Part shown: one piece after another, positions 26,501 to 64,000 of the stretch
Layout: the number at the start of each line of letters is the position of its first letter
Numbering within the stretch: position 1 is the stretch's first letter
Assembly: GCA_964036045.1 (NCBI GenBank)
Contig: OZ038384.1
Coordinates: 97,529,474 to 97,593,473 of the forward strand
Length of the DNA stretch: 64,000 nucleotides
Origin: Eutreptiella sp. 'Long Island Sound 2002'
Taxonomy: Eukaryota; Euglenozoa; Euglenophyceae; Eutreptiales; Eutreptiaceae
Reading direction: 5' to 3'
Program-made: the position numbers and the translations under genes
Notes under the pieces: model-generated
Databases searched by the model: none
Told to the model about the DNA's origin: nothing
Seen by the model: only the letters and a program-made list of their open reading frames with translations

Positions 26501-26607
26501 ATGACACGAGCGTATTGATGCCCTTGTGAGCGTAGTGCTTTGCCTGCCTGCTCACTTGTGCGTGTCACCGCAGCGTCCCGTGGCCGGCCCCCAACGGGAA
26601 CGCGTCA
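23584..26607 (+). repeat. Element B 3' LTR
   Basis: The second copy of the ~3.02-kb LTR, with the same TG and CA ends as 9355-12377. Differences cluster in a short stretch at about 25555-25630, while most of the LTR is nearly identical. Chromodomain sequence of element A follows directly. Confidence 0.93.
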
Positions 26608-34767: not shown

Positions 34768-35316
34768 TCAGGGCCCTCGGGGGTTACCCGCACGTCGTAC
34801 AAGGGCGCTGCGGAGGGCACTGAAGAATTCGTGCACCAGGGCCGCGTGCGCCGCCCGGGCCTCCGTCTCAGTGCAGATGGCGGGCTGCAGCTGCCCACCC
34901 AGCGCCAGTGCCCGGATCTTGTGGATCGCGAAGACGGGGCATAGGTTGGGCTCAGGGGGGGTTTCCGCTGTCGGTTCCAGGATGGCCTCCATCTGCTGCC
35001 AGCCGTCGAGGTAGAATCCCCACGCCGCTGACCACGCCCTGGTGTGCGGCCAGCGGCGCCGCGCCCACCGCCAGAGGCAGTAGAGGGCGTGGCCTGGGTG
35101 CCAGGTGCCTGCCGCCCCCGACACAATGGCCGTCAGGGGGTCCGGGGGTTGGTTTGGGAGCAGGGGGGTAGGGTCGTCCGGCAGGCCCGTGGTCGGCCGG
35201 AGCATGGAGTCGACGGCCTCCAGCCTCCAATGGCTGTCCTGCGGGTGCGGGATGATCCGCACCTGGTAGTAGTGGCTATTCTCCAACACGATCATGGCGA
35301 TGGTACCGGGGTCACA
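34768..35316 (-). pseudogene. D polyprotein C-terminus: Ulp1/C48-like cysteine protease core
   Basis: In frame with the 1,027-codon piece upstream, separated only by TAA at 35317-35319. MIVLENSHYYQVRIIP supplies a candidate catalytic His (codon at 35272-35274), RLEAVDSML the Asp (about 35213), and NLCPVFAIHKIRALALGG the Cys (codon 34939-34941). The order His, Asp, Cys and the VFAI-type helix after Cys fit the Ulp1/SENP (C48) fold, which cleaves ubiquitin-like proteins. The Asp-Cys spacing (~91 residues) is longer than usual. The match is by motif only, so the assignment is moderate. Confidence 0.5.
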
Positions 35317-38300: not shown

Positions 38301-38400
38301 GGGCGGTCGTGGCGTCGGTCGGGGTAGCAGTGTGTCCGTGTTGGGAGGTTGTCGGTCGGCGTGTACGTTGGGTCCGCTGCCGGCCGGTCAGGTGCGCCAT
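35317..38400 (-). pseudogene. D polyprotein central region
   Basis: A 1,027-codon frame, mostly disordered and rich in Pro, Arg, Gly, Asp and Thr. A folded-looking block lies at residues ~435-545 (LSFWIRRLVTGEQVELAVRI, RRYVATRLMAHMGAYSPDEM), conserved in character but unknown to me. The C-terminal ~170 residues begin the protease domain: LVTPGTQVSDDLIEAWISWF resembles the 'L-x-pG-x-L-x-D-x-x-I' entry motif of Ulp1 proteases. The ATG at 38400 is probably internal, because the frame is open upstream to a TAA at 38490-38488. Long plus-strand ORFs over the same DNA are GC-driven shadows. Confidence 0.5.
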
Positions 38401-38856
38401 GGTGCGGGCGGGGTTCCGGGTGGGCCTGTGTTGTTGCCGCTTGGCTGGCTGCCGGCCGTGGGCCGTGCGCAGGCGCGACGGGTGGTGTTAGGGGTTGCGG
38501 GCTCCCTGTGGGGCTCGGGGCCGGTACCCTGTGCGGGTGTGCGGTGCCGGGGGGCTGCCCGGGCCGCGACCCACCGCCCCCGTATTCGTGGGGCCGGGTA
38601 GGGCTCCGCTCCTGGCAGGTGATGCTAGGTGTCCCCGGCTCCCTGTGGCCGTGTGGTGTTGTGTTGGTTGTCGTTGCGCCGCCCGTTTGGACACACGCTC
38701 TTGTCGGGGGCTCTGTGGTGTGCCGGCCCTAGATGGTGCCGGACCGCCTGTAGTCCGCGTGGCGTCGGCGGCGTGTTGTTGGTGTAGTTCGGCTGCGGGT
38801 GTGGGGGGGGTGGAGGTGGATGGGTCGGGGGATGTGGAGGACGTCGCGGCCGACGT
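38401..38856 (-). pseudogene. D polyprotein linker between RING part and central part
   Basis: The same minus-strand frame continues through this stretch, interrupted by TGA at 38859-38857 and TAA at 38490-38488. In the homologous fragment at 55928-56347 the first position reads CGA (Arg), so the TGA is a later mutation. The encoded linker is Ser/Thr/Pro/Gln-rich. The upstream half of this stretch is duplicated at 55928-56347. Confidence 0.5.
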
Positions 38857-39808
38857 TCAGGCCCGTACGTTCGTGGCCCTAGTCGCTGTCGTGGCGCAGG
38901 ATCCGGGCGGGGGGGTGGTGATGGTTGTGGTGGTTCTCCGGGGGGAGTAGGATGAGCCGTCGAGCCGGGTACCTCTGGCCATCAACCTGGCCACCGCTGC
39001 ATTGCCGTATGTGCCCGGTTGTGGTGGCGGGACGTGCGGCTGCAGGGTGCGCTGTATCAGCGATTCGAGGCTGCGTGGAGGGGGTATGCCCCTCCACGTG
39101 AGGTAGGCCGCCATCAGCCTCTCGGTCGCCCCCGGGGTCATGGCCCCGCCGCGGTGGAAGAAGTTCCCCCACTCGGCGCCATGGGCGCCGCGGGCGATGC
39201 CCATCGCCCATTCCGCGTCCCCCACCAGCCAGCCGAAGGCGATCGGGAGGCGGGTGGTGAGAGTGACGACCATGTTGCGGTAGTTGTTTTGGTTCGTGGG
39301 GCTGACGTAGCCCCAACTGCCCGGCAGGTTGCCAATGGGGGGCAGACTGCCCCGTGGTGCGTCGTTGTAGTCGTTGTGGTCGGGGACGTAAACCGTGGGG
39401 TCCGCGTCCGGGTCTGGCAGCGCCCAGGTTGGTGCGCGCCAGGGGGGCGGGGGGGGGGGGTGTCGCTGGGTTCCCGTCGGTGAGGACGTCCAACCACTCG
39501 TCGGGGCTGTCCTCCCCCGCGCCGTCGTTCCAGACGTTTTGCCGGATCAGAGTCCGCAGCGTCTGGAGTGTGAGGTCCTCGTCTTGCGTTTCGCGCGGCG
39601 GCGGAGCTGTGCAGAGTCGGTGCCGTCGCCGGCAGAGTGGGCACGACCACAAGTTCGCGATGCACGGGCTGCAGAACCAGTGCAGCTGCTCCGTGCCGCC
39701 GCAGCCGAGGTCATGCCTGCGAAGGGGGTTGCCGTCGTCGTCGTTCACCTCCATGCAGACCCCGCATGGGTTCCCCGGCCGTGGATGCGGTGCTTCACCT
39801 TCGGGCAT
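38857..39808 (-). pseudogene. D polyprotein N-terminus with RING finger
   Basis: The first ATG is at 39808. Residues ~12-70 hold a C3HC4 RING: CGVC, then LGCGG, LHWFC, SPC and SCPLC. RING fingers usually recruit E2 enzymes for ubiquitin or SUMO transfer. A 12-bp G run (39449-39460, C12 in sense) marks a frameshift. Beyond it the protein continues in another frame as WALPDPDADPTVYVP, then WLVGDAEWAMGIARG and EWGNFFHRGGAMTPG, up to TGA 38857. That second frame is clearly the protein-like one. A RING upstream of a Ulp1-like protease in one frame is unusual. Confidence 0.6.
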
Positions 39809-40424
39809 CCTGAGGAGAACAACGCCCGGGCGGCGAGTCCGGGGGTGTGGCCGGCAGCGGCGCACCCCGCCGACCTAGAGCTCCAGCTGGCGGTCCCGAC
39901 CCCAGTGTACCACTGGCTACAGGCCTTCCACGTAGCTGTCCAAGTCGCGCGCGCTGGGGCCCTGTCCCAGAACGAAATAAAAAGATAGGTAAAACACGGG
40001 GAAAAAACTTTCTGAATAGCTGAAAATAAAGCTAATTAGCATAAAAAACGCTCAGGCCAAAAAGCGCGCTGCGAAACGCGTAAAAACGCGACGAGAAATT
40101 TTTCGACGTGAAATAGGTGAATAGTCTCCGCCGTAACAACTGTAACGCTCGTAGGACCCTAACGCCGTCCCTCTCGTCGTCTAACTGGCCGTAGGCGCAA
40201 AGAAAAACGCGTCGCGAGCAGCGCGTAAAACTCGAAAAGTTTTTCTAAGCCGCCGCGTCCCTTCGCCCTGCTTCTCTTCCTTTTCTTTCCTTCTCCATGC
40301 ACCTACCTCCCCTCCCTCCTGCCCCCCCTCACCCCTTTTCATCAGCTTAGGCGACCGGCCCTGGGTGAAAAGCGGTCAACCCCTAGCAAGCAAGACCACC
40401 ATCTTCGCGGTCGCGTGGCAACAC
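39809..40424. other. 5' flank of D and pyrimidine-rich intergenic region
   Basis: From about 39975 to 40260 the composition changes abruptly to A-rich sequence with repeated 'aaaacgcg'-like words. This is upstream of D on the minus strand and could hold its promoter. Around 40255-40347 a long pyrimidine tract ends in TTTTCATCAG, which resembles a 3' splice site on the plus strand. No gene is recognised. Confidence 0.35.
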
Positions 40425-40525
40425 GTAAGTCAGAAATTTCACCTTGGTATTGCTGCTTGCCTGCGTGCGTGAGTTGCGTGGAGTTTGATTTTCTAAAGAG
40501 AAACATTTTAATTTTTGGTTTTCAG
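40425..40525 (+). other. Intron-like segment upstream of the T-free tract
   Basis: GTAAGT at 40425-40430 and a T-rich stretch ending TTTTCAG at 40525 give a 101-nt candidate intron with good consensus at both ends. The downstream exon would run directly into the T-free tract. No transcript evidence is available, and the upstream exon has no convincing start codon. Confidence 0.35.
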
Positions 40526-40563
40526 GAAGTTTTCAAAGGCACAGAAAAACGGCAGGGGTTTTT

Positions 40564-42013
40564 AGCAAAGGAAAAGAGGACAAAAGGAAAAACAAACACC
40601 AGCAGCGCAGACAACCGCACAGCACAGCCAACCAGCACAGCACCGCAGGGCAGCACGGCACCGCAGGACACGGCACAGGGCGCAGGACACCACAGGACAA
40701 CGCACAGCACAGCAAGACTCCACGACACACCAGAGCAGCACCACCACACCGCAGAACGCCCAGGGAGACACCACAACGCACAGGGACACGCCACAGCACG
40801 AGGCACCAACAACAGCGCAGACGACACTGGCGCCGCACGACGGGCCGCAGGAGGGCAAAGCAAACACAAAGAGCACCGCAAAACGACAGCAGAGCACGAC
40901 AGCACAGCACCACACGACAGCACAGCGCCACAGCACACAACACAGGGAAGCAGGGCACCACAGCCAGCACAACAAGGCACCGCAGCGCACAGAGCGGAGA
41001 AGACAGGGAACGCACAGCACGAGGAAAAGAGCACGACAGCACGCGGACACCACAACGGGGCAAAAAACAGCACAGCCAACCAACAGCACAACACAGCACA
41101 GCACGACAGCCCACAGGAGGGCAAAGCAAGCCCCAACAGCACCGCAACACGACAGCAGAGCACAACAGCAGAGCACCACGCGACAGCACAGCACCACAGA
41201 ACACGACACAGGAAAGCAGGGCACCACAGCAAACCACACCAACCACAGGGAAACAGACCACGCGGCCAGACAGGGACACCGGCACCGGAACACGCCACCA
41301 GCAGACAACCACGGGCCACCAGACCCAGAACCGCACCACGGCACACCACAGCACCAGGCGCCAGCAACAGCACGCACCACACGAACAGCACAACGCGAGC
41401 GCACCAGCACAGCAAAGCACAGCACCGCACAGAGCGGAGAGGACAGGGAACGCACAGCACGGCACCCCGGGACACACACAGCACAAAGCAGAGCGGCGAA
41501 CAGCAGCACGCACCACCGCGCCACGACAAAACACACACAGCACAGAGCACACAGCGCGGGGGAACACCGGAAAACACAGCGCCGCAGAGCACAGGGCCCG
41601 AGGGCAACGGGCAGCGCCAGAGGGCACGGCGCAACAAGCAGCGGCACCCAACGAGCGCAACACAGCACAGGACAGCACAACACCGGAGGACACAACGCGC
41701 AGCAGCGCGGCGCAGCACCGCACCCAGGGACGCACAGCACACGGCACACAGCACCGAGCGGCAGCGACGAAAACCGCGGGGGGGGGGGGGCAGCAACCAC
41801 CAGGGAGCAGCCAACAGCCAAGCGGAAAGCACGAAAGAGGGACAAGCGCACGGAGAGCCGACAAGCGGAAGCCCAACAAAGCAAACAGCGCACAGCGCCG
41901 AGGCCCAGGGCACCCGGGGCCGTCAACCAGAGAAAGCCGGAGACAACGGGGGCGCACAGGGGAAGAAGAAGAAGAAAAAAAACAACCAAAAAAACACCAA
42001 GGCAACAAGCAGG
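40564..42013 (+). repeat. Thymine-free low-complexity tract, open in all six frames
   Basis: From 40564 to 42013 only three T occur on the plus strand (40719, 40828, 41923), so 40829-41922 is 1,094 consecutive nt without T. It is made of varied words such as cacagcac, gacagcag and caccgcagg, not one short period. Internal duplications exist (40987-41020 against 41429-41462; ~40850 against ~41114). Without T the plus strand can have neither stop nor ATG, and the A-free minus strand has no stop either, which explains ORFs of 460-560 codons on both strands. Plus-frame translations lack Leu, Ile, Val, Met, Phe, Tyr, Trp and Cys. I treat it as non-coding until shown otherwise. Confidence 0.85.
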
Positions 42014-42313
42014 TGTTATGGCTTCGAACAGCAGCAGCGCAACAGCGCAGCGCAACAGCGCGCAAATCGCAAGTCGCAGTCGCAATTGCGCTGACAGTCT
42101 GTGAATAATAAAGAAGCATCGAATGCCAACTCTGAATGAGCGCTGTAAGATACTTCGATCTTTGAACAGGGTTTATGTCTTCGAGATTGTGTTATTATTG
42201 GTGCCCCGTCTAAAGATCCTGCGAGGTTTGTCGATTGGGATTTTGGATTTCGGATTTTGAGAAACAAAGAGGCACAGGAGTGCAGTCGAGTTCCCAAGAA
42301 ACAAACCACAACA
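42014..42313 (+). repeat. Element C 5' LTR (300 bp)
   Basis: Starts TGTTATGGCT, ends ACAACA, and carries gcagcgcaaca-type repeats near its start and an AATAAA poly(A) signal at 42107-42112. It differs from the 3' LTR by a repeat-unit indel and a few substitutions. Confidence 0.93.
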
Positions 42314-42406
42314 AGTGGTAGCCAGCTAGGTGGCGGGGAGGATCAATCTTCGAGATCAATCTTCGACGCCGCAACGCCGTCAACTTGATTTGGACTTCGA
42401 TCTACA
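42314..42406 (+). other. Element C leader and possible primer site
   Basis: TGGTAGCCAGC begins at 42316, two bases after the LTR. It shares TGGTAGC with an initiator-Met primer site, then diverges. The tRNA is therefore uncertain. Confidence 0.45.
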
Positions 42407-44020
42407 ATGGAGCGGCCCTTCGACGACGCAGCTATGCTGCATTTCATCAGAGACAGTTTGTTTCGAAGTGATTCACCCTTGCATCACGAATTTTCGACCT
42501 CGTTAGAGAAGTTCATCGCAGAGCGCATCCCTAGTCGAGAAAGCGAGTGGTTTCCATGTCTCTCTCGTGATCTTCACAGCTGTTCGCAGAAGCTTGCGGA
42601 TACTCAAGCCAAAGTTATCGAATTGGAACAACGCATCGATGTATTGCAGGCAACAGCAGCAAGTGCTACCGCAGCAACTGGCCAGCGCATCGATACCTTG
42701 CAGTCCTCGACGGAAAATGCAACTCAAGCTGCTGCAAATGAGCTTCGACGCGTAGAACATGAATTGTCGCAATGTTACGCTCCTCTCAACGAATTTGTAC
42801 GAACTTCGAGTCCACCACCTCCGAACAACATCCAGTCTCCGCAACCACAACAACAACAGTTTCCGCAACCACCGTCTTCTTCGAATTTGAACCAACCTCA
42901 CCCTCCACAACATCCACTCCCACAGCGGCCTACTTTCGAACCACTACCCCAGTTCGTAGTTCAACGTGCTCCTTCGCAGGAGATTTTGGGACGCCGCGTC
43001 GAGCGCCTGAACAAACTGGTCAAGAGGTTCACGGGTAAACCTGCATGTGGGGAATTTCGAACATGGAAAGAAGATTTACTACGAGCCTTCACTTTGTCGG
43101 ACATCACCTCACCCGTCGATCAGGGAGCAACGATGTCATTCCTCCTCGATGGTGATGCCGCTGAGTACTATCATAGCCTGACGAAAGTTGTACAGGACTA
43201 CTGGTTCGAGCTCATGCGTGTGTTACGCCAGCGTTTCGACTGCATATCCCATGAGCCAGTGTATTTGTCGAGAATGTTGAGCTTGAAAGAGAGCGAGTTT
43301 CCCCAACATGCAGATTACGTTCGAGAATTTCGTACATGCGTTATCAAGTTGAAGGTCAACACGAATGAACTCCAGATGGGTTACCTCGTCAGCTCTCGAT
43401 TTGTTGAAGGGTTGTCGAATGACGCTGTGCGATGGCAGTACATCGTTGAAGTCCGTTCGAGATGGCGTTCTAATAATCCATTTGAATTCGATACCTTGGT
43501 AGAGACCATCGCGGAAGCCTACATTGCGGCTGGGTATCAACTGGAAGATGTACAGAACGCATCGAGAACGACATCAGATCACACCCTGGGTCCTGCAGTG
43601 TCGAGACCCCTGCCTATGATGGTCCCACCTACTTCGACTTCCACGTTTCCATCGAACCCTATGCCAATGCCACACGTCACACCGATGCCGACCCCAGCTG
43701 CGGTGCCCACGGCTTTGACCGTGGCAGAGCCGATGAATCTCGATGCAATTGCCAAGCTTCGAGAAGAGTTACATGCCTACATTGGTGAACGGTTCGGACG
43801 TCAACATGGCGGACGCCAAGATGGTCGAGAAAGCAGACGTTGCTACAACTGTGGCGAACAAGGACACTTGGCCCGCGACTGTCCAAATGGTCGACCGCCA
43901 TCCCGAGGACGAGAACGCCGGGAATCACGGTCGAACACACCGAAACGAGATCAAAGTCGAGACAGCAAGGGACAGTTTCGATCCCGCTCCAAGAGCAGAG
44001 AAAGGCCTACAACGGCCTAG
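42407..44020 (+). CDS. gag: Element C Gag
   Basis: A 537-residue Gag with an ATG 94 bp after the LTR. Residues ~55-125 form a heptad-like helical segment (KVIELEQRIDVLQATAAS). A Pro/Gln-rich linker follows. The capsid-like region spans ~205-390 (FRTWKEDLLRAFTLSDI, MSFLLDGDAAEYYHSLTKV, YVREFRTCVIKLKVNTNEL). The nucleocapsid has a canonical CCHC knuckle, CYNCGEQGHLARDC, at about residue 477, followed by an Arg/Ser-rich tail. It overlaps the protease frame, which lies in +1, so Pol synthesis would need a +1 (or -2) shift between 43925 and 44020, or an indel has separated them. Confidence 0.88.
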   Translation: MERPFDDAAMLHFIRDSLFRSDSPLHHEFSTSLEKFIAERIPSRESEWFPCLSRDLHSCSQKLADTQAKVIELEQRIDVLQATAASATAATGQRIDTLQSSTENATQAAANELRRVEHELSQCYAPLNEFVRTSSPPPPNNIQSPQPQQQQFPQPPSSSNLNQPHPPQHPLPQRPTFEPLPQFVVQRAPSQEILGRRVERLNKLVKRFTGKPACGEFRTWKEDLLRAFTLSDITSPVDQGATMSFLLDGDAAEYYHSLTKVVQDYWFELMRVLRQRFDCISHEPVYLSRMLSLKESEFPQHADYVREFRTCVIKLKVNTNELQMGYLVSSRFVEGLSNDAVRWQYIVEVRSRWRSNNPFEFDTLVETIAEAYIAAGYQLEDVQNASRTTSDHTLGPAVSRPLPMMVPPTSTSTFPSNPMPMPHVTPMPTPAAVPTALTVAEPMNLDAIAKLREELHAYIGERFGRQHGGRQDGRESRRCYNCGEQGHLARDCPNGRPPSRGRERRESRSNTPKRDQSRDSKGQFRSRSKSRERPTTA

Positions 44021-44291
44021 AAAACAATTCCGAAGACCTGGTGGCGGACGTCCTCGAGAAGAGCTGAACACCACCACCAGCACCAATAAACCCGAAAAGA
44101 ATTCGACGCTTGGAAGTGTCACTGTCGAAGGAACCGAACCTGAGCATGCGTCTCTGTTCACGGTTCGAGGGCGCATTTGCGCATGTCGTGAAGACTTCTT
44201 TGACTCCAGCGTGGAACTGTTGGTCGACTGTGGAGCGACTAGTGACTTTATGTCGATGCAAACAGCAAAGAGGGCGCGACTTCCCCTCTGA
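43743..44291 (+). pseudogene. pol: Element C protease region
   Basis: An open frame overlapping the end of gag. The useful part starts at about 44030. LLVDCGATSDFMSMQTAKR is an aspartic-protease active site with DCG in place of D(S/T)G, a variant I believe occurs in other chromoviruses. TGA at 44289-44291 interrupts it after RARLPL; the same frame continues directly as ELRNPGHVLTAGG, so this is a single nonsense change in the protease. Pol downstream is otherwise intact. Confidence 0.75.
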
Positions 44292-47200
44292 GAACTGAGA
44301 AACCCTGGACATGTCTTGACAGCAGGAGGTGTCCAAGTCGAAGTACGGTACTACACGCGAGCTTATGTTCGAGTTGGAGAGCTTGTATTTCGTCATCACT
44401 TCAAGGTCTTGAAGATTTTGCCGGATGTAGTGCTTGAACTACCATGGCTTGGAAGCTACAATCCAACTGTCAACTGGAAGGAGCGATACGCCGACATCCA
44501 ACATGGTTCGATTTCGTACCGGTTGTGTTTTGGCGAATCACGACATTCCACCCAGCTACAGTTTCAAGCAGCTTCAAAGCTGGACCTTCTTTCGATACTT
44601 TCATCCAGTTCCTCGAAAGCGAGTCCGGTTGTGAATCCTACCCCACATGCCAGCGAACACCCTGACCTACACTCGTCGACACACGTTCAGCGCAGTACTG
44701 ACACGTACGATGAGTCCAAAACGGAAGATGGTATCACCGATGAGGAGTGCAGCGATATGGAGATTGAGTACATTTCGTTGCCGAAACTCAAAAGAGAGAT
44801 CCGTCGATCTGATCTCACGGGAGATCAAGTATTTCTGTGTTGCATGCCTCGACCAGCAGTGCCGGTCGATAAAATGTATAAGATGCAAGCCAGTGATGGC
44901 AATGATGACGGGCTTGACCCTGTTCGACGCAAACTACCGAGTCGATTACACAAGTGGGCGGACCTCTACGACCGGGAGAAAGCGGAATATGGAGACCTAC
45001 CTCCGCATCGACCTGGAAGAGACCATCGAATACGCCTCGATTCGGAAGAAAATCCACCGTGGGTACACCCTTACAAAATGGATCCGAGCCAACTAGATGA
45101 ACTTCGACGACAATTGGACAAGTTGCATCGATCTGGTCGCATCAGACCATCCTCGAGTCCATACGGAGCGGGTTGCCTACTGGTGAAGAAAGCGAATGGT
45201 AAATGGCGTATGTGCGTCGACTACCGAGCGTTGAATACACGAACTGTACGAGATCGATATCCTTTGCCATCGATCCAATCCATCTTGAGTACACTGGGGG
45301 GTTCCACCGTATTCTCAAAGATTGACCTTGTTAGTGGGTTCCACCAGATCCGAATTCAAGACGAAGATATCGAGAAAACCGCCTTCAACACACAATTTGG
45401 CGCCTTCGAGTGGGTTGTTATGCCCTTTGGCCTCTGCAATGCGCCATCGACATTCCAACGCGTCGTGAATGATGTCCTTCGAGACCACTTGGGGATCTTT
45501 GTATGGGTGTACATTGACGACATCCTCGTCTTTTCGAAGGATGCGGACGAACACCAACGACACCTCGACCTGGTACATGACCTACTCCGTGAGCACCAGC
45601 TCTTCCCCTGCATCGATAAATCCACATTCTTTCAGAGTCGAGTGCCCTTCTGCGGATACATCATCAACCAAGATGGAGTACACATGGACCCCGAAAAAAT
45701 CAAGGTCATTCGAGGTTGGCCTCCACCAACTACGGTCCATGAAGTTCGACAGTTCATTGGATTGTGTGGATTTTACCAGCAGTTTGTCGAAGGGTTCCAA
45801 GCTGTCGCAGCCCCTCTGACTGCAATGTTTAAGGCAGACTTCGAGTGGGAATGGACAGCCGTCCACCAAGCTTCCTTCGACAAGCTGAAGCAGGCGATGA
45901 TCAGCGCGACACATCTCAGTGCTATCGACCCCCGACAGCCGTATCACCTGTACACAGACGCTTCGAAAGACTGCCTGGGTGCTACGCTGGCGCAACGATG
46001 TGCGCATGGGAAGTACAAGGGACATCTTCGACCTATTGCCTTCATGTCGCGGAAAATGCAGCCTGCCGAAACTCGATACCCGATTCGAGAACAGGAGTTG
46101 TGGGCCATCGTATTAGCCTTGAAACAATGGTTTCACCTACTTCGAGGACCGCAGCAGGTGCACGTGCACACTGACTACGAAAGTCTTCGATATCTCAAGA
46201 CCTGTCCTCGACCGCTGACACCACGGCAAGCACGATGGTCCCAATTCCTCGAGGAATACAACCTGACGTTGTGGTACGTGCCGGGCCTCGAGAACCCTGC
46301 GGCAGATGCCTGCTCTCGTTTAACTTCGCGGCAGTTGATGGAGATCGAAAATGCTACACGTACACGGGCTTTCGCAATCCCCCTGGTCGAAGATTGGGCT
46401 TCACCGGAAGGAGAACCTGTCGATGAGTTCCTACATGTACTCGAAGACACATTCTCTCATGACGAGGTGTGGCCCCAGCCGTACGACCACCTGTACGTTT
46501 CACTACGAAGCGGACGCTCCGTGGGGAAGGAACTTGACGCAGATGAGCTTGCGGAACCAGCCCTCCAATTCGACACCGAACCCGCCGTCGAGCCGGAGGA
46601 CCTGGAGCCGCGACCGTCGAGCGCGACAACTGCGGAGCCGGAGGACCTGAGACTGGATCCAGCACCATCGGACGAGATCATGGCTGAGAATTCACACCAA
46701 CCAAACATGCATCTCGATGAGGCGGGCAATGAGCCAGACACGTCTACTGACACCGACGACCTCCCCGATGTAAGCATGGATCGCCCCCTTCGAGTCACCT
46801 TTGGCAATGAACTTCGATACGCACCGACCATGGCGGAACTGATTCCCTGTCCACGTCACCGTGACGGCACTTTGCAATCGGTTCCCTTGCCGAAGGTTGG
46901 GTCGAACACGCCGTACCCTTCGAGTCTTAAGGGTACACACCGCCGAGTACATCGACATTATCAGTGCAAAGACTTGACTTCGACAGCTGTGTGGGCGACA
47001 GCCTATCGGGAGGACCCCCGGACGAAACACATCTACGAAGTGGCAATTCGAAGCCCTGCGGCACGACACCAGCTTCGAGATGCCAAGTTGTCCTTCGATG
47101 ATGGCAAATTCTTCCATTTGTCGATGATGGGCAAACGTGTGCTTGTCCCCCGAACGCTGGTTACGTCGATTGTGGCTATGTATCACGAGTCGGAGTTCTA

Positions 47201-48431
47201 TGGCCACTCAGGAGTCCTTCGAACCATGGCCCCGATTAAGCGCGACTATGTATGTTCACACCTACGACACTATGTCGAGCGATACATACTAAGTTGCGAT
47301 GTCTGTCAAGCGGCGAAATCAAGACGAGTCGACACCGCCAGAGTCCCAAGACCCTTGCCGGTGCCCAACACCAAATGGCACAGTGTGTCCATCGATTGGG
47401 TTTCGGGATTGCCGCCGACCACAAGGGGCCATGATGCCATCATGACTGTAGTCGACCGATTCTCCAAGCGTGGAATGTTCATCCCTTGTCGCAAGGATAT
47501 GACAGCCGACGACCTCATCTATGTGTTCCTACGTGAGGTTATTCGATTGAAAGGATGCCCTCGACAAATTGTTTCTGACCGAGACAAGCTGTTCGAGTCT
47601 CAGGCGTGGAAGGAGTTCGCCCAGCGCTTCAAGATTGAGATGCATCAAACAGTCGCCAACCGCCCTCGAGGCAATGGCCTGGCGGAGCGCAGCAATCAAT
47701 CCATCCTCCAGCGCCTGCGTACACACGGCATCTTCGGCAACAACGAGTGGGATGTCGACCTCCTGTTCGCCGAAATCCAGTTCAACAACCTGACATCCGA
47801 TAGTCTTCGACTATCCCCGTTCGAGATAGATGAAGGACGAACACTCCATTTTCCATTGGATTTTCCCCGAATGACTTCTCATGCACATGAACCATCGACC
47901 GTGAATGATTACATGCAACGAGCGGAACGTACCTTCGATTCTGTGCGTGCAATGCTTGCCGAGGAACGTCGACGCCAGATGCATGTGGTCCTGCAAATGG
48001 ACCGACACGTTCGAGTGCCTGAAGTCGGTGAACGATGGTGGGTGTTGGTGCCTGAATATCGACATAAAGGGAAACTCGATGTTGTCTGGTGCGGCCCTTA
48101 CAAAATACTCGAGGTACTGAACAAGGGTGAGAATGTCAAACTGGACATCCCTGCCCCCTTCGATGGGTTGCGAGTTTTCAATCGAGACAGCATAAAACAC
48201 TACGTCCATCGACAGGGACAGCCGGTGTGGGAGGTTCCGATGCCCCCTGTCAAAACTGGAGAATCTCCTCGACTTGTCAAGATTGTGGCTAGACGTCGAG
48301 TGGGATCTAAAAGGCGCCGCACATTCCTGTACCGTTGTGAATGGGATGACGACACATGGTCTTGGGAGTCGAGCAAGGCTCTAGAGGAGGATCCTGTGTA
48401 CCTTGAGTTCCTTCAACTCCACCCTGAGTAA
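44292..48431 (+). CDS. pol: Element C Pol: RT, RNase H, integrase, chromodomain
   Basis: An uninterrupted frame of about 1,380 codons after the TGA. Protease end: PDVVLELPWLGSYNP. RT at nt ~45060-45560: KWRMCVDYRALN, KIDLVSGFHQI, VMPFGLCNAPSTFQ and YIDDILVFSK. RNase H: YHLYTDASKDCLGATLAQ, REQELWAIVLALKQW, HTDYESLRYL. Integrase: YHESEFYGHSG with CDVCQAAKS; core SIDWVSGLPP, IVSDRDKLF and GNGLAERSNQSILQ (D, D, E intact). C-terminus nt ~48270-48400: RRRTFLYRCEWDDDTW, SWESSKAL is chromodomain-like. TAA at 48429-48431 is followed closely by a splice-acceptor-like sequence. Confidence 0.88.
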   Translation, partial: ELRNPGHVLTAGGVQVEVRYYTRAYVRVGELVFRHHFKVLKILPDVVLELPWLGSYNPTVNWKERYADIQHGSISYRLCFGESRHSTQLQFQAASKLDLLSILSSSSSKASPVVNPTPHASEHPDLHSSTHVQRSTDTYDESKTEDGITDEECSDMEIEYISLPKLKREIRRSDLTGDQVFLCCMPRPAVPVDKMYKMQASDGNDDGLDPVRRKLPSRLHKWADLYDREKAEYGDLPPHRPGRDHRIRLDSEENPPWVHPYKMDPSQLDELRRQLDKLHRSGRIRPSSSPYGAGCLLVKKANGKWRMCVDYRALNTRTVRDRYPLPSIQSILSTLGGSTVFSKIDLVSGFHQIRIQDEDIEKTAFNTQFGAFEWVVMPFGLCNAPSTFQRVVNDVLRDHLGIFVWVYIDDILVFSKDADEHQRHLDLVHDLLREHQLFPCIDKSTFFQSRVPFCGYIINQDGVHMDPEKIKVIRGWPPPTTVHEVRQFIGLCGFYQQFVEGFQAVAAPLTAMFKADFEWEWTAVHQASFDKLKQAMISATHLSAIDPRQPYHLYTDASKDCLGATLAQRCAHGKYKGHLRPIAFMSRKMQPAETRYPIREQELWAIVLALKQWFHLLRGPQQVHVHTDYESLRYLKTCPRPLTPRQARWSQFLEEYNLTLWYVPGLENPAADACSRLTSRQLMEIENATRTRAFAIPLVEDWASPEGEPVDEFLHVLEDTFSHDEVWPQPYDHLYVSLRSGRSVGKELDADELAEPALQFDTEPAVEPEDLEPRPSSATTAEPEDLRLDPAPSDEIMAENSHQPNMHLDEAGNEPDTSTDTDDLPDVSMDRPLRVTFGNELRYAPTMAELIPCPRHRDGTLQSVPLPKVGSNTPYPSSLKGTHRRVHRHYQCKDLTSTAVWATAYREDPRTKHIYEVAIRSPAARHQLRDAKLSFDDGKFFHLSMMGKRVLVPRTLVTSIVAMYHESEFYGHSGVLRTMAPIKRDYVCSHLRHYVERYILSCDVCQAAKSRRVDTARVPRPLPVPNTKWHSVSIDWVSGLPPTTRGHDAIMTVVDRFSKRGMFIPCRKDMTADDLIYVFLREVIRLKGCPRQIVSDRDKLFESQAWKEFAQRFKIEMHQTVANRPRGNGLAERSNQSILQRLRTHGIFGNNEWDVDLLFAEIQFNNLTSDSLRLSPFEIDEGRTLHFPLDFPRMTSHAHEPSTVNDYMQRAERTFDSVRAMLAEERRRQMHVVLQMDRHVRVPEVGERWWVLVPEYRHKGKLDVVWCGPYKILEVLNKGENVKLDIPAPFDGLRVFNRDSIKHYVHRQGQPVWEVPMPPVKTGESPRLVKIVARRRVGSKRRRTFLYRCEWDDDTWSWESSKALEEDPVYLEFLQLHPE

Positions 48432-48460
48432 CTGAGTAACACCCTTACTCTTCTCTGCAG
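48428..48460 (+). promoter_or_regulatory. 3' splice site / candidate 33-nt intron at the pol stop
   Basis: CCCTTACTCTTCTCTGCAG ends at 48460, a strong polypyrimidine-AG acceptor. A GTAACT at 48428 would define a 33-nt intron containing the pol TAA; its removal fuses pol in frame to the next ORF (HP-D-VVFEKLM). Alternatively, the acceptor serves a longer subgenomic splice from an upstream donor. Both are inference. Confidence 0.4.
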
Positions 48461-48479
48461 CGTGGTTTTCGAAAAACTC

Positions 48480-49055
48480 ATGCGAGGTTCCGGGTCGAAC
48501 ACCGGAGCCTCCGCCTATGGTACTACATCCCGGACGCCCCGAGCTTCCTCTCGACCTCCGCCTTCTCGAGCGACATCGTCGAACGTCATCGATGTTGACG
48601 CGATGGAACCCCCAGCGAGGACGACTTCAACTGGCCGCTGCTTGTCGGTAGCATCAGCGCCAACTCGTCCGAATCCACCTCTCGATCCATTCGAACCGCC
48701 GCACTACAGCCAGTCGGCATATGCTGGGAGCTCGAAAGGACAAGGAGGCCCGTCGAAAGGAGGCAAGGGAGGTGTGTTCCCTCGCGGGAAATTTGCGGGA
48801 ATAGCGCCGAGTGGACGAACCATCATAACAGGAGGCGCCGAAGGCTTGGAAGTGCTCGAGATAGCCCTGGCCAGCTTGCCTGTTCTGGAACCGACGAAGG
48901 GAGGGACTCCACCCGACATGCCGCCGGAACTCTGTAACCTGTACGGGCCCCCTCCCCCGGTCGATGCAGAATACTTTCGAGAGCGGTGCTCAAGCCCTGA
49001 CTGGTTCGATTCTGATGATGAAGATCTTGCTTGCTACACGGGGTACGACGACTGA
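48480..49055 (+). CDS. Element C ORF3, unknown protein
   Basis: 191 codons from ATG 48480; the frame is open back to 48461. It is Ser/Pro/Thr/Gly-rich with little predicted structure (TSRTPRASSRPPPSRATSS, SKGQGGPSKGGKGGVF) and an acidic end (PDWFDSDDEDLACYTG). There is no signal peptide or membrane segment, so it is not an obvious envelope protein. It lies in the same frame as pol and ORF4, each separated by a stop plus splice-acceptor-like sequence. Its TCGA-rich codon use matches pol, so it belongs to element C. It could be an accessory protein or an N-terminal part of ORF4. Confidence 0.55.
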   Translation: MRGSGSNTGASAYGTTSRTPRASSRPPPSRATSSNVIDVDAMEPPARTTSTGRCLSVASAPTRPNPPLDPFEPPHYSQSAYAGSSKGQGGPSKGGKGGVFPRGKFAGIAPSGRTIITGGAEGLEVLEIALASLPVLEPTKGGTPPDMPPELCNLYGPPPPVDAEYFRERCSSPDWFDSDDEDLACYTGYDD

Positions 49056-49074
49056 TCTTCCTTCTTCTGTTCAG
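49056..49074 (+). promoter_or_regulatory. 3' splice site upstream of ORF4
   Basis: TCTTCCTTCTTCTGTTCAG begins at the base after the ORF3 stop: 16 of its 19 bases are pyrimidines and it ends in CAG. A donor-like GT at 49043 would give a 32-nt intron, but that joins a different frame. A distant donor, or subgenomic splicing, fits the ORF4 frame better. Confidence 0.45.
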
Positions 49075-51518
49075 CGCCCGGATGGGTCGACAGTTCTTGG
49101 ACATCGAGGCCGAACACCTGGACATCGAGGTCATCCAGAGAGGATCCGGGTACCGGAGAGCCGAAAGTCGAAGACGACTGGGTCGACCAATCCTGGCATT
49201 CGAATGCCCCGAAAACACAAGCTTCTACTCGAACGAACCAATCCGACTCCTACTACCACGACGCCGACTCCTATTACCACGACGATGACTACAACTACGA
49301 CGCTGAACCCTGGCCACTCGAGTCCGACGACGAAGCAGAATATCCTTACGAACCCGCGCGGTCGACAGCACCACCCAGCTACGATTCTGTGCCGGTGCCG
49401 GAGTCGAAATGGCAGCCCTACAACATGCCGCAGTACAATCATGAAATCGAGACCATCGACGAACTTCGACACTTGGGAACGTTCGGATTGAAGCCACCCT
49501 ATCGATTTGGGACACATGAAGATGATCCGATGAAGACGGAGTACACTAAGCTCGAACCATCGGTACTCACTATTGCGTCGAGTACCATGGCTGGTCTTGG
49601 AAAGCCGCACACGTTCCTGAGCGAGAAACACTATGAAGTCGTGTCGAACGCAAATGCCGCCATTGTCGAGTTGGGCAAGACCTTCTGCATCGACAGTTGG
49701 GGTCGAACCGCACCATTCCCGTACGAATTGGCTCGAAGTGCCCCTGACACGTCTTTCGATGAGCATGGAAACCTTGGTGGTAAGCCAGGATACCAATGGT
49801 ATACGAAAATCGAAGTGGCTTGTCAAAACTTTCCAACGGCCCTCATGAAATGGCGACATTATGATGAAGAGCTCGATTATGGATTCCGACAAGACCTCAC
49901 CGAACATACCCTGCCGAGTCAAATTGCTCGACTCAACCGCATGCATCGAGAGATCTCGGGTATCGACGACCTGATAAACGTTGCGGATGGGATCGACCTG
50001 ATCTTCAAGTATCGACGCTTCTGGACCCATGAAAGGATGAGACGAGAAGCTCCCGTTGCCGTTTCGATTATGGGAGTTATCCGTGATCTTCAAAAGGTTT
50101 GCCAGGCGAACGACTGGCTCTTCGAAGATCGAGCCCCCTTCCTTGCGTACAAACTCGATTTGCTTCTTCGCCGACACCAACTGCGCGGCCTTCGAGGCAC
50201 CTCTCGACTTGGGTATAAACGATATGGGTGCGCTCCACATCGAACACAGGACCTTGCGGTCCAGCTCCAGGAATACTTTCGACTCGGAGAACAGATCGAA
50301 CCCTACGCGTACAACGCCGTCGCACCAGGCGCCCCCATCGACCTTGTCCAGTTGGCGACGATCTACCAGACTGGACCCGGACGACTCGGGTACCACGACT
50401 TCGATAGGGCAATCCGACGAGTTGCTGCCCTTCACTCATCGAATGAAGAGTATGTCAATCTTTTCCCTTTCGTGGATGCCCCCGATTTGGTTCGACGCCT
50501 GGGTACCTCGACATACCTCATGTCCCCCTTCGAGGCCGGATACCATGATGGACAACGTTGGCGTCGGACGGTCAAGTTTCGAAGGGACGTCTATGCTGAC
50601 GAACGGGAGGAGATCGAGAAAACCGACTCGCCTGCGAGCGACCCGTTCCACCCTGACCCCCTCGATCACCGGTTCTTGTCGATGGAGTCGAATGCCTATC
50701 AGCACCACTTCGACATTCCGTTCTTCAAGTACCTCACGCCGATCCACGAAGACTTTAAGGCTGCACATCGACGCAAGGTCAGCTGCCGGGACCAAGTCCT
50801 CGAAACGGTCATTGTCGACACGGCTTCGAGCCTTGTGACTACAGAAGCGGTTCGATTCGCTCTGCAGAGTTCCCTCGCTGACGGCCACTATGTCCATCAA
50901 CACCTCGGTCGACTCCAAGAAGAAGGTTCTCGAACCGACACGCTTGAGATCGTCGACCGATATGCCCTCGGCCCTGAGAAGGACGACATCAGCGCCGTCA
51001 TTGTCGTACGAAGACTTTCGATTGCCGACACGCCGTGGTGGCGAGTCGATACGCTAACCGGTCAGTTCTACCACAGCATGGCCGCTGGTACTGGTTCGAA
51101 GGAAACCTATCGGTGGTCTACTGGTCGACATGACGGATACTCCTTCGAGGTCACCAATCGGGCCGATCTGTGGAGTGAGGACGTTTGGAAACCGTCCAGC
51201 CTCTGGGACTTCTATTCGACCAGGGCACAAACACTGGGACCTGGACAATCTCGAGCGCTTGCCCGTGAACATGTCTTCGTATTCCAGTACAAGTGCCCCG
51301 TCGACGACCGACCTGGTGATCCCAACCTTCGATTGCTGAACCATCGATCTGGTATCCTGATTCAGAAGCGTGCCCTCGACAGTGATATCCGTCGACACTA
51401 TACGGGTCATGACACCTTCAAGTTGATGGCTGGCGTCGAGACACTAAAGGAAGTGCATGAACTATGTCGACTTCCCGTGGATCGTTCGTACACGTTCACG
51501 TGGGGCACGGACTGCTGA
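49075..51518 (+). CDS. Element C ORF4, large protein of unknown function
   Basis: The frame is open from the acceptor at 49075 to TGA 51518; the first ATG in it is at 49425 (~697 codons). The N-terminal stretch is Tyr/Asp/Glu-rich (DSYYHDADSYYHDDDYNYDA). The rest looks globular, with many Trp, Tyr, Arg and Asp (HTFLSEKHYEVVSNANAAI, FKYRRFWTHERMRREA, STSTYL-type segments, WWRVDTLTGQFYHSMAAG). I see no RT, protease, methyltransferase, signal peptide or hydrophobic segment, so I assign no function. Position after pol is where retroviral env or accessory genes sit. Intactness over 2.4 kb and element-like codon use argue that it is a real protein. Confidence 0.6.
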
Positions 51519-51640
51519 TTCGACATGTCTGGATGCCAAGTAATGGCTGATTCGACAGTCTGGATGCCAAGTAATGGCTGATTCGACAGTCTGGATGCCA
51601 AGTAATGGCTTATTCGACAGTCTGGATGCCATTAATGGTA
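51515..51640 (+). repeat. 31-bp tandem repeat, about four copies
   Basis: Unit gattcgacagtctggatgcc plus aagtaatggct, repeated from just after the ORF4 stop. The last copy is shortened ('gccattaatgg'). Confidence 0.8.
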
Positions 51641-52060
51641 TCGAATGCCTCCATATGTCCTGTCGAGCTGACAGCTGTACAGGCCTGTTGGTCTGCTGAG
51701 CATCCAGCTTCGATGTTATGGTATGTTATGGTTCGACGTGCCCACAGCCTTGCTGCGGGTACAGCGCCCGTGCAGTGTACCTGGCGAGGTTCTCTTCTGC
51801 AGCTTCCGCCGAAAGCCGCAGCCGTGGCAAAGTCGAACACGGCGTGTGAATGAGGCGCTGACGATGGGTGTCCCATGACTGCACCTCGGTGTGTGATCTC
51901 GACCAGAATTGGTCCACTGTTTCGACCAGGATTGGTCCACTGTTATGCTTCTGTAGCCAACACATGTCGAGGCCCAAAAAAATTTTTTTCTGTCTGGGCC
52001 TGCTCTCATTCGACATTGTGACGCCCGCCCAGGTGAGTGAGACCTCTTCGAGGTCTCAAC
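51641..52060 (+). other. Element C 3' untranslated region
   Basis: About 420 bp without a supported gene. A short direct repeat, 'gaccagaattggtccactgt' and its near copy, lies at about 51901-51942. An A8/T7 block follows at 51978-51991. Confidence 0.5.
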
Positions 52061-52067
52061 GGGGGGG
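52061..52067 (+). other. Element C polypurine tract
   Basis: Seven G residues followed by tag, immediately before the TGTTATGG start of the 3' LTR. Confidence 0.7.
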
Positions 52068-52070
52068 TAG

Positions 52071-52383
52071 TGTTATGGCTTCGAACAGCAGCAGCGCAAC
52101 AGCGCAGCGCAACAGCGCAGCGCAACAGCGCGCAAATCGCAAGTCGCAGTCGCAATCGCGCTGACAGTCTGTGAATAATAAAGAAGCATCGAATGCCAAC
52201 TGTGAATGAGCGCTGTAAGATACTTCGATCTTTGAACAGGGTTTATGTCTTCGAGATTGTGTTATTATTGGTGCCCCGTCTAAAGATCCTGCGAGTTTTG
52301 TCGATTGGGATTTTGGATTTCCGATTTTGAGAAACAAAGAGGCACAGGAGTGCAGTCAAGTTCCCAAGAAACAAACCACAACA
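52071..52383 (+). repeat. Element C 3' LTR (313 bp)
   Basis: Matches 42014-42313 with one extra gcagcgcaaca-type unit. AATAAA lies at 52177-52182. It is followed by the duplication cagg. Confidence 0.93.
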
Positions 52384-52710
52384 CAGGAGCGACGAAAACC
52401 GCGAGACACAAAAGGGGAGGGGAGGGGGGAGAAACCACCAAAGAGCAGCCAACGGCCGAGCGGGAGACACATACGAGGCGCGAGCGCAAGAAGAGCCAGG
52501 CAGCGGGAGGCCGAGAATAATAACCAAAGCACAGCGCCAAGGCAACAAGGAACGGCAAGGGCAGCAAGAGAGAGGGTGGCAACCCCAGCCCGGAGGGGGC
52601 CAAGCAAAGCAGAAAGACAAAGCGGCCAAAGGAAAAGGCGAGGCGCACCACAACGCGCCCGGGAGGCCGGCCCGCCCGACCCGGCCACAAAGAGCAAGCA
52701 CACGCACGCC
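52384..52710 (+). repeat. T-poor low-complexity sequence, right side
   Basis: Four T in about 330 nt. It resembles the tract left of element C: 'gcgacgaaaaccgcg' occurs here and at about 41764-41778, and 'gagcagccaac' in both. It is the continuation, or another unit, of the T-free tract split by element C. Confidence 0.65.
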
Positions 52711-52860
52711 AGCCGCCGTCCGGATGGACGAGTGCGCGCCCGGAGGGTACCCAGCCCCTGCCGGCTACGAACAGCCGCCGTCCGGATGGACGAGTGTGCG
52801 CCCGAAGGGTACCCAGCCCCTGCCGGCTACGATAGCCGCCGTCCGGATGGATGAGTGAGC
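52711..52860 (+). repeat. 62-bp tandem repeat, about 2.5 copies
   Basis: The unit starts agccgccgtccggatggacg and contains gggtacccagcccctgcc; copies start at about 52711, 52773 and 52834. Confidence 0.75.
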
Positions 52861-52885
52861 GCCCCGCAGCAACGCCCTGCACAGC

Positions 52886-55356
52886 AACACAACACACCGA
52901 GCGGGCACACCGGTGAACAGGAGCCAGTTGGCCCAGGACACCGCACACGCAAAACAACACACCGAGCGGGCGCACCGGTGAACAGGAGCCAGGAGGCCCA
53001 GGACACCGCACACGCAAAACAACACACCGAGCGGGCACACCGGTGAAAAGGAGCCAGGAGGCCCAGGACACCGCACACGCAAAACAACACACAGAGTGGG
53101 CACACCGGTGAACAGGAGCCAGGTGGCCCAGGACGCCGCACACGCAACACAACACACCGAGCGGGCACACCGGTGAACAGGAGCCAGGAGGCCCGGGACG
53201 CCGCACACGCGAAACAACGCACCGAGCGGGCACACCGGTGAACAGGAGCCAGGAGGCCCAGGACACCGCACACGCAAAACAACACACAGAGTGGGCACAC
53301 CGGTGAACAGGAGCCAGGTGGCCCAGGACGCCGCACACGCAACACAACACACCGAGCGGGCACACCGGTGAACAGGAGCCAGGAGGCCGAGGACACCGCA
53401 CACGCAACACAACACACCAAGCGGGCACACCGGCGAACAGGAGCCAGGAGGCCCAGGACACCGCACACGCAACACAACACACCGAGCGGGCACACCGGTG
53501 AACAGGAGCCAGTTGGCCCAGGACACCGCACACGCAACACAACACACCGAGCGGGCACACCGGTGAACAGGAGCCAGGTGGCCCAGGACGCCGCACACGC
53601 GAAACAACGCACCGAGCGGGCACACCGGTGAACAGGAGCCAGGAGGCCCAGGACACCACACGCGCAACACAACACACCGAGCGGGCACACCGGTGAACAG
53701 GAGCCAGGAGGCCCAGGACACCGCACATCCAACACAACACACCGAGCGGGCACACCGGTGAACAGGAGCCCGTTGGCCCAGGACACCGCACACGCAAGAC
53801 AACACACCGAGCGGGCACACCGTTGAACAGGAGCCAGTTGGCTGAGGACACCGCACACGCAAAACAACACACCGAGCGGGCACACCGGTGAACAGGAGCC
53901 AGGAGGCCCAGGACACCGCACACGCAGAACAACACACCGAGCGGGCACACCGGTGAACAGGCGCCAGGAGGCCCAGGACACCGCACACGCAAAACAACAC
54001 ACCGAGCGGGCACACCAGGGAACAGGAGCCAGGAGGCCCAGGACACCGCACACGCAACACAACACACCGAGCAGGCGCACCGGTGAACAGGAGCCAGGTG
54101 GCCCAGGACACCGCACACGCAAAACAACACACCGAGCGGGCGCACCGGTGAACAGGAGCCAGGAGGCCCAGGACACCGCACAGCCAACACAACACACCGA
54201 GCGGGCACACCGGTGAACAGGAGCCAGGAGGCCCAGGACACCGCACACGCAAAACAACACACCGAGCGGGCACACCGGTGAACAGGAGCCAGGGGGCCCA
54301 GGACACCACACACGCAGAACAACACACCGAGCGGCACACCGGTGAACAGGAGCCAGGTGGCCCAGGACGCCGCAAACGCGAAACAACGCACGGAGCGGGC
54401 ACACCGGTGAACAGGAGCCAGGAGGCCCAGGACACCGCACACGCAACACATCACACCGAGCGGGCACACCGGTGAACAGGAGCCAGGAGGCCCAGGACAC
54501 CGCACACCCAACACAACACACCGAGCGGGCACACCGGTGAACAGGAGCCAGTTGGCCCAGGACACCGCACACGCAAAACAACACACCGAGCGGGCACACC
54601 GGTGAACAGGAGCCAGGAGGCCCAGGACACCGCACACGCAAAACAACACACCGAGCGGGCACACCGGTGAACAGGAGCCAGGAGGCCCAGGACACCGCAC
54701 ACGCAACACAACACACCGAGCGGGCGCACCGGTGAACAGGAGCCAGGTGGCCCAGGACGCCGCACACGCGAAACAACGCACCGAGCGGGCACACCGGTGA
54801 ACAGGAGCCAGAAGGCCCAGGACACCGCACACCCAACACAACACACCGAGAGGGCACACCAGAGAACAGGAGCCAGGATGCCCAGGACACCGCACACGCA
54901 AAACAACACACCGAGCGGGCACACCGGTGAACAGGAGCCAGGAGGCCCAGGACACCGCACACGCAGAACAACACACCGAGCGGGCACACCGGTGAACAGG
55001 AGCCAGGTGGCCCAGGACGCCGCACACGCGAAACAACGCACGGAGCGGGCACACCGGTGAACAGGAGCCAGGAGGCCCAGGACACCGCACAAACAACACA
55101 ACACACCGAGCGGGCACACCGGTGAACAGGAGCCAGGAGGCCCAGGACACCGCACACACAACACAACACACCGAGCGGGCACACCGGTGAACAGGAGCCA
55201 GTTGGCCCAGGACACCGCACACGCGACACAACACACCGAGCGGGCACACCGGTGAACAGGAGCCAGGGGGCCCAGGACACCGCACACACAAAACAACACA
55301 CCGAGCGGGCACACCGTTGAACAGGAGCCAGGTGGCCCAGGACATCGCACACACGT
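52886..55356 (+). repeat. 65-bp minisatellite, about 38 copies
   Basis: Unit acaccgagcgggcacaccgg followed by tgaacaggagcc, a variable aggaggccc, aggacaccgcacacgc and aaaacaac. Copies differ by a few substitutions and rare 1-bp indels. The unit has one to three T on the plus strand, so all three minus frames lack stops. Because 65 is not a multiple of 3, each minus frame cycles through all three phases, giving a 65-residue protein super-repeat in ORFs of up to 1,058 codons. I regard these as by-products. There is no CRISPR-like alternation of repeats and unique spacers. Confidence 0.92.
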
Positions 55357-55927
55357 AGGGCGGCCGAGGGACAGGAAAGAACCAACACCCCATGGGTCGG
55401 ACACACTGGGGCGACCCAGCCGACCCACCGGGCCAGTGGCAGGAGCGGTACTCCAAGGCTGCTGGTCAGAGCCCGGCCAGGCTGCATCGGGGACCATGGC
55501 AAATGTCACCCGGAGCCATGGAAGCAACCGGTGACAGGCGAGCCGGTACACAGTCCAGGAGGGGGTCGCCTGCCAAGCGGAGCGGCCCCGCAACTCAAGC
55601 CACAAGGGTGAGGCGGTCGTACCGTAGACAAGCGGGAGCAATACCCCTTGTGGTGAGAGATACTCCACACGGCTGGGCAGCCCCCAGAGCTGCCGCCCAA
55701 AGGAGGGGGCATGTGGCCCTACTCATGGACACATGTGGGGACACCCTCCCACCTGGGACACATGGACCGGGTGGCCGCGACAATGCCTTCCCAAGCACAT
55801 GCGGGAGCGGCTCAGAAGGCACCTAACATAGGGCCGTGGGAGGGACAGGATGTCCCCTTGGTAAGACCTTCTTCCTGCATCGTCAAAGGAGGCATCCCGA
55901 GCTCCCGAAGATACCTACCTACCTACC
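55357..55927. other. Spacer between minisatellite and D fragment
   Basis: About 570 bp of mixed-composition sequence without a recognised gene; the frames present are short and lack known motifs. It ends in a (ccta)n microsatellite of four to five units at about 55911-55929, exactly where D homology begins. Confidence 0.45.
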
Positions 55928-56347
55928 TAGGGCTCCGCTCCTGGCAGGTGATGCTAGGTGTCCCCGGCTCCCTGTGGCCGCGTGGTGTTGTGTTGGTTGT
56001 CGTTGCGCCGCCCGTTTGGACGCACGCTCTTGTCGGGGGCTCTGTGGTGTGCCGGCCCTAGATGGTGCCGGACCGCCTGTAGTCCGCGTGGCGTCGGCGG
56101 CGTGTTGTTGGTGTAGTTCGGCGGCGGGTGTGGGGGGGGTGGAGGTGGATGGGTCGGGGGATGTGGAGGACGTCGCGGCCGACGTTCGGGCCCGTACGTT
56201 CGTGGTCCTAGTCGCTGTCGTGGCGCAGGATCCGGGCGGGGAGGTGGTGATGGTTGCGGTGGTTCTCCGGGGGGAGTAGGATGAGCCGTCGAGCCGGGTA
56301 CCTCTGGCCATCAACCTGGCCACCGCTGCATTGCCGTATGTGCCCGG
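55928..56347 (-). pseudogene. D-family fragment (RING-protein C-part and linker)
   Basis: About 98% identical by eye to 38599-39017. It encodes PGTYGNAAVARLMARGTRL and the Ser/Thr/Pro linker in one open minus frame, without the TGA present at 38857. The LINE 3' end is fused to its upstream side at 56348, within the site matching 39018. Confidence 0.8.
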
Positions 56348-63949: not shown

Positions 63950-64000
63950 CTTCGAATCGTAGCGTTGTGCGCACCGCGGCCACTTGGACGGTGCCGTCTA
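63950..64000. other. LINE 5' flank or leader at window edge
   Basis: Fifty-one bases upstream of ORF1 with no recognisable feature. The LINE 5' end may be here or beyond. Confidence 0.3.

Follow-up and report, generated by a model that had tools for sequence, protein, structure and literature searches.

We analysed a stretch of 64,000 nucleotides (the window) and searched the 2.28 Gb eukaryotic assembly from which it comes. The window holds a dispersed, many-copy, non-protein-coding mobile element, a long central segment of which is almost free of thymine on the plus strand. The whole element spans 39944-42013 and 52384-55928, split by a Ty3/gypsy-type LTR retrotransposon (Table 1). This retrotransposon carries zf-CCHC gag, RT, RNase H and integrase between LTRs that match at 94% identity (42013-42313 against 52070-52383), and it is a later insertion, because several other copies of the element run from 42013 directly into 52384. 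The 125 nt between 39818, where a long flank duplication stops, and the left edge of the element are unaccounted for. An Rfam search of the 64-kb window gave no match above the gathering score, and a tRNA search of the window found none.

Table 1. Features of the element and its immediate surroundings, in window positions.
Feature	Positions	Strand	Basis or remarks
Left copy of long flank duplication	38599..39818	+	Right copy 55928-56349, resuming past a LINE in L038 1783-2596
5' leader, ordinary T content	39944..40424	+	Aligned; left limit of the match 39944-39946 for six of ten other copies, further right for four
Candidate intron	40425..40565	+	GTAAGT at 40425-40430; acceptors TTTTCAG (40519-40525) or TTTTTAG (40559-40565)
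T-free exon, part 1	40566..42013	+	Base counts, copy alignment, border motifs
Ty3/gypsy-type LTR retrotransposon (later insertion, outside the element proper)	42014..52383	+	LTRs, domains
T-free exon, part 2	52384..52637	+	Ends at AAAAG|GTGAGG-type donor
62-bp tandem units, 2.6 copies	52706..52864	+	Tandem-repeat search
65-bp tandem array, 38 copies	52879..55352	+	Array length is locus-dependent; T about 1-5% per 150 nt
3' domain	55353..55911	+	98-99% identical in at least 39 other places
(TACC)4 tail, 3' end of element	55912..55928	+	Right limit of the match 55928-55932 for eight of ten other copies

A direct base count of 40564-42013 gave 535 A, 510 C, 402 G and three T (at 40719, 40828 and 41923), with none in the 1,094 nt from 40829 to 41922, just as an earlier sequence-only reading of this DNA had reported. 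The next longest run lacking any one base in the 64-kb window, 155 nt, lies in the same tract. That reading took the piece to be 1,450 nt long and to end at 42013; its T content holds, but the limit is only the junction of the later retrotransposon, and T-poor sequence restarts at 52384. With independent letters and T at 0.22, about 1e-114 T-free runs of at least 1,094 nt are expected per 64 kb, and even with T at 0.05 the expectation for the whole genome is about 1e-16; a chance origin of the run is excluded. We also rejected an assembly artefact, because comparable no-T runs recur at many other loci, including 1,168 nt in copy C9a, 1,141 nt at L031, 1,310 nt at L041 and 1,446 nt at L043.

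The tract had further been described as something other than a simple short repeat. TRF found only short local arrays inside it, and a plain tandem repeat or satellite was rejected on these and on a lag-5 signal that is degenerate. Such a degenerate signal and an internal duplication are nevertheless present: CAGCAC is 14.7-fold over expectation, the lag-5 match is 0.437 against 0.337 expected, and two segments are internal duplicates at 70% identity, of whose 119 differing sites 117 are among A, C and G and two involve T. The tract was probably seeded by a T-free CAGCAC-like repeat, perhaps through its expansion, although expansion is by itself a poor account of divergence in which T stays absent. 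All six frames are open, as had been noted, but this is a by-product of the missing letter and carries no coding evidence; the added statement that a plus-strand peptide would have no hydrophobic residue went too far, as a T-free frame could encode Ala, Pro and Gly. A protein-coding exon, or selection for open frames, was rejected for the tract by indel lengths (of 19 distinct indels, 14 would shift the frame) and by a flat distribution of variable columns over the three phases (121, 115 and 112). In the rest of the element, coding was judged from the list of open reading frames.

Besides its own place, the tract occupies at least 39 other near-full places at 93-96% identity, a lower bound that comes from scoring 40 of 3,671 first-look candidates. 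Ten copies were taken with 20 kb each, and their ends were placed against the window copy. The four that stop inside the element do so at 40068, 40129, 40343 and 40532; the last of these (C24) could carry another leader instead of being truncated. Copies were picked for holding the tract, so deeper 5' truncation is invisible in this set. On the right, the window copy and eight of the ten others end at the (TACC)n tail, and C3 and C24 end earlier. The 60-nt flanks differ among copies. Flank duplications were found in eight of 11 copies (window included) and range from 10-17 bp up to 1.1-1.2 kb: 14 bp in C9a, a shared 17-bp string in C11 and 10 bp in C4 (possibly chance), 1,100 bp in C2 (L017/L018), 720 bp in C9b (L021/L022), and about 1.2 kb in the window copy, in two pieces of 422 bp (98.3%) and 814 bp (97.7%). 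Those of C6 and C7 lie away from the junction, and C12, C24 and C3 showed none. The variable left ends, the fixed (TACC)n right end and the flank duplications point to non-LTR-type retroposition, with the plus strand as the putative RNA strand, and the RNA was probably copied in trans by LINE-type machinery. Target-site duplications longer than 100 bp are unusual for non-LTR elements.

A minus-strand LINE (56350-64000), with endonuclease and RT domain matches, sits within the right flank duplication of the window copy, apparently by insertion; the duplication resumes beyond it, in L038. The left flank of C9b has, on the minus strand at L021:8864, another sequence whose tail is likewise TCCCGAAGA(TACC)4 and lies right where the duplicated flank starts; it is perhaps a very short copy or a member of a sister family.

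The T-free zone, about 1.7 kb long, looks like one exon between candidate splice sites. Its left border is a pyrimidine-AG, which reads TTTTTAG or, with other leaders, TTTTTCAAGTAG; its right border is GGTGAGG. Both border motifs stand at the expected places in 20 of 23 sequences of one set; the exceptions are the window and C12, with a changed donor that let the motif scan run on to a later site, and L037, which gave none. In a second set both borders are found in eight of nine sequences, the diverged L040 (below) included, and L043 is without the exact acceptor string. In the 23-sequence set, T content is about 22-35% before the zone and 3-9% in the 300 nt after it. Sixteen exons without a T-containing insert that is described below have 2-9 T in 1,190-1,983 nt, and four exons with it have 29-34 T. 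Among 20 copies the window copy alone lacks the donor-site T and has C at 52639; the other 19 keep it. Upstream, CACGTAAGT of the candidate intron is present in all 16 aligned copies that cover that part, and GTAAG is also kept in a second leader type, which aligns poorly across the candidate intron. We saw no spliced genomic copy, as all 16 of these aligned copies keep the candidate intron.

We then compared 20 aligned copies from the 40 near-full places, namely the window copy, the ten taken at length and the nine lowest-scoring ones; the leader of L033, which is of another type, was excluded from 5'-region counts unless stated. The FastTree tree was star-like and changes were placed on it by parsimony. 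The majority tract sequence of 1,431 letters has a single T (40828), kept in 20 of 20 copies. Dead copies do gain T, as is seen from the tract singletons, among which are 35 C>T, 12 G>T and 10 A>T. On terminal branches, T-making changes number 63 of 397 in the tract, 33 of 146 in 52384-52710, 34 of 152 in the leader and 18 of 70 in the 3' domain. On internal branches they number 0 of 25, 0 of 12, 10 of 37 and 0 of 2, respectively, and the 3' domain, with just two internal changes, provides no control. Among internal changes from A, C or G, the ratio of T-making to other changes is 0:37 in the tract and the second part, against 10:19 in the 5' region (p=9.5e-5; our Fisher tests treat columns as independent). 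Tract variants found in at least two copies comprise 28-29 G>A and one C>T. The shared C>T:G>A ratio is 1:29 in the tract against 6:5 in the 5' region (p=6e-4, without L033); with the L033 leader included, the 5' region has 10:6 (p=2.3e-5).

Non-T-making singletons occur at similar rates per cell in the tract (0.0093) and the 5' region (0.0089), whereas T-making singletons amount to 0.0020 in the tract, 0.0043 in the 5' region and 0.0034 in the 3' domain, with tract C>T and G>T singletons about halved or lower relative to the 5' region. In 52384-52710 singletons make T at the normal rate (0.0045), with no halving. The rates for singleton G>A are close, at 0.0084 per cell in the tract against 0.0079 in the 5' region. 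Singleton C>A is about twice as frequent in the tract (0.0035 against 0.0016), which is unexplained. These counts and rates fit a mixture in which changes that arose before insertion avoid T and changes that arose after it do not.

The copy with the other leader, L033, led to more distant relatives of the exon. Its leader is found in at least 39 other places at 95-98% identity, and nine loci with this leader type were read downstream. Seven of them carry the window-type tract at 93-96% identity, with no-T runs of 775-1,446 nt. The tract of L040 is only about 58% identical to that of the window over its full length, against 49% for one shuffled sequence, with aligned patches at 72-80%; its exon has 6 T in 1,190 nt. 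Over 626 aligned positions the window and L040 exons differ at 122, of which 121 are among A, C and G and one involves T. A shortened relative, L047, has 8 T in 500 nt and differs from L040 at 26 sites, six of them with T, which is an ordinary share; the diverged tract type is represented by these two, the one long copy and the shortened one. Since T-making changes lie on terminal and not on internal branches, and since the diverged L040 tract is nearly T-free, T appears to be largely kept out of propagating copies. The sequence-only reading had held that some strand-specific process or constraint must be at work. The copy comparison lends partial support to this, on the side of a constraint, in that internal-branch T-making changes are absent from the tract and present in the 5' region.

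The exclusion of T is not absolute. An insert of about 115 nt, ordinary in T content, is common to five of the ten fully fetched copies (C4, C9a, C12, C3 and C6), where it sits in an A-run near the tract end (insert plus A-run at L013 3931-4060, with equivalents in L011, L015, L023 and L025). In the nine copies counted, this stretch has 26-29 T in the five with the insert against 0-1 T in the four without it. The insert, which we take to be SINE-like in look, gave no match in a tRNA search. Because a lineage with this T-containing insert still spread, U in the exon RNA seems to be disfavoured at most sites and not lethal everywhere.

Our best explanation, with a probability of roughly one half, is that this is a non-autonomous, non-coding composite retroposon whose U-free main exon is kept so by selection on the sense RNA. 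Its RNA would run from a 5' leader through a candidate intron, short and T-rich, the U-free exon (about 1.7 kb, and probably founded by the CAGCAC-like repeat) and a donor-like site to VNTR arrays, a 3' domain and a (UACC)n tail. Lineages that gained T in the exon would mostly have failed to propagate, and dead copies would accumulate it, with selection on the sense RNA as the most likely cause. A U-free exon would offer no 5' splice site, U-tract or AAUAAA, so that the transcript would stay whole. Besides the spread of the T-containing insert, it speaks against this explanation that T is avoided in every context, which is beyond what splice or polyA signals alone need, and that T has not gone from the arrays, where the 65-bp units still have some and the 62-bp units about 12%. 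It is possible, though we regard it as doubtful, that the exon represents a natural U-free RNA domain selected for composition and not for sequence, in which strongly diverged tracts of a single retroposon family keep a 1.2-1.7 kb exon with essentially no U, and the mobile RNA would go unnoticed by some host step of RNA processing or surveillance that depends on U.

The founding repeat could also suffice without selection, if a T-free pentamer-like repeat had expanded and then been captured by the retroposon, and the active lineages had had too little time to gain T. The CAGCAC enrichment, the lag-5 match and the internal duplicate agree with this, as do the low number of internal-branch changes overall (25 in the tract) and the spread of the T-containing insert. 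However, at the 25-30% share of T-making changes among singletons and terminal changes elsewhere in the element, about 30 of the 119 differences between the internal duplicates should involve T, and about 30 of the 122 between the window and L040 exons, where we observed two and one. The reading is strained by L040 and we consider it unlikely, though not negligible. Far less probable is a mutational removal of T by strand-specific T->C change at each round of retroposition, for example by A-to-I editing of minus-strand cDNA in an RNA:DNA hybrid. It would account for a one-strand bias in an element copied from RNA and draws on the excess of G>A over C>T in the tract, where shared G>A is 0.0037 per cell against 0.0025 in the 5' region. 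Singleton G>A, on the other hand, is much the same in the two regions, so the quantity that is low is T-making change. Mutational loss is also at odds with the survival of the few ancestral T: all 20 copies have the T at 40828 and 19 have the donor-site T, and the 65-bp units mostly keep theirs. The ordinary T content of the 5' leader counts against it too. Hypermutation of the APOBEC or ADAR type is contradicted by the same retention of T and by the ordinary T content of the leader.

Evasion of small-RNA defence has little chance of being the cause. Zucchini-dependent cuts are typically made immediately before a U (PMC9018710) and piRNAs have a 1U bias (PMC6381166), according to the cited parts of these reports, and a U-free RNA might thus escape piRNA production; PIWI-domain genes are present in this genome, with Argonaute and PIWI clades counted together. 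Yet in the excerpt cited of the study of an artificial U-free cassette in Aedes cells, trailer piRNAs were still produced in a similar pattern and at a similar level (PMC8421150), a result that argues against simple piRNA evasion here. In addition, the leader, arrays and 3' domain of our element retain U, and the T-containing insert spread. A constraint on RNA structure or R-loops is about equally improbable. In this case the absence of A-U and G-U pairs would leave the sense RNA open, or would make an RNA:DNA hybrid more stable, and the folding energy of 997 nt is indeed -185 kcal/mol for the plus strand against -317 for the minus strand. Compared with its own dinucleotide shuffles, though, the plus strand is ordinary (z=0.97; folds at least as stable in 15 of 20 shuffles). 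G and C both stay, so another letter would have been a better one to lose, and a single U would matter little. Evasion of HUSH was rejected, since the trigger is A-rich sense RNA, as the cited portion of PMC8770142 has it, and the plus RNA would not be hidden from it.

If there is a host step that removes mobile RNAs because a given exon contains U, the element would be a natural experiment on that step, with its many copies in one genome as the replicates. U-dependent RNA surveillance, long-exon recognition or transposon defence could then be tested by simple base substitution. Even without such a host step, a one-letter exclusion on the kilobase scale that persists through divergence would be a composition constraint. 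VNTR composite retroposons as a kind are already known (SVA, LAVA); a kilobase exon kept without U is, to our knowledge, apparently undescribed, and we know of no other case in which a kilobase-scale exclusion of one letter is kept through sequence divergence. A search of open-licence papers for thymine- or uridine-free elements found nothing relevant.

The nearest known systems are the SVA and LAVA retrotransposons of hominoids, which in the cited parts of the reports are likewise non-autonomous and composite, with a central VNTR of varying copy number (PMC4432496, PMC7353768, PMC6139936). Our element has 62-bp and 65-bp arrays of varying length, a non-coding tract and a second leader type before the same tract, but it ends in (TACC)n and not polyA, and has the U-free exon of about 1.7 kb. 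LINE mobilisation in trans is demonstrated for SVA and LAVA in the same sources, and is presumed for the element here. The element behaves as an SVA does without being one, in a comparison that covered parts other than the Alu-like and SINE-R ones. The artificial 'U desert' cassette (Joosten et al. 2021, PMC8421150), as described in the excerpt, also places a wholly U-free RNA stretch beside U-containing RNA, but that cassette is a designed viral reporter insert, whereas the exon here is natural and found dispersed through a genome. HUSH-sensitive A-rich retroelements such as L1 ORF2 share a strong bias of A over T on the sense strand; L1 ORF2 is coding, with 41% A and 20% T in the cited portion of PMC8770142, whereas here T is near zero and no coding signal was found.

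GC-rich stretches with 8-14% A on one strand lie at 34000-39943 and in L012, L021/L022 and L023/L024; the ones next to C3 and C9b match each other at 67% over 1.4 kb. A minus-strand ORF of the window (35317-38400) has 9.4% T and no Pfam match. Further upstream, 12852-22097 on the plus strand contains GC-rich frames for a Ty3-like RT/RNase H and a chromodomain-integrase, adjoining a 2,113-aa ORF without a Pfam match; this sequence recurs, at 91-94%, beside copy C6 in its flank. A direct repeat of 3.0 kb (9354-12380 and 23583-26608), 96.9% identical, contains a 40-bp tandem unit.
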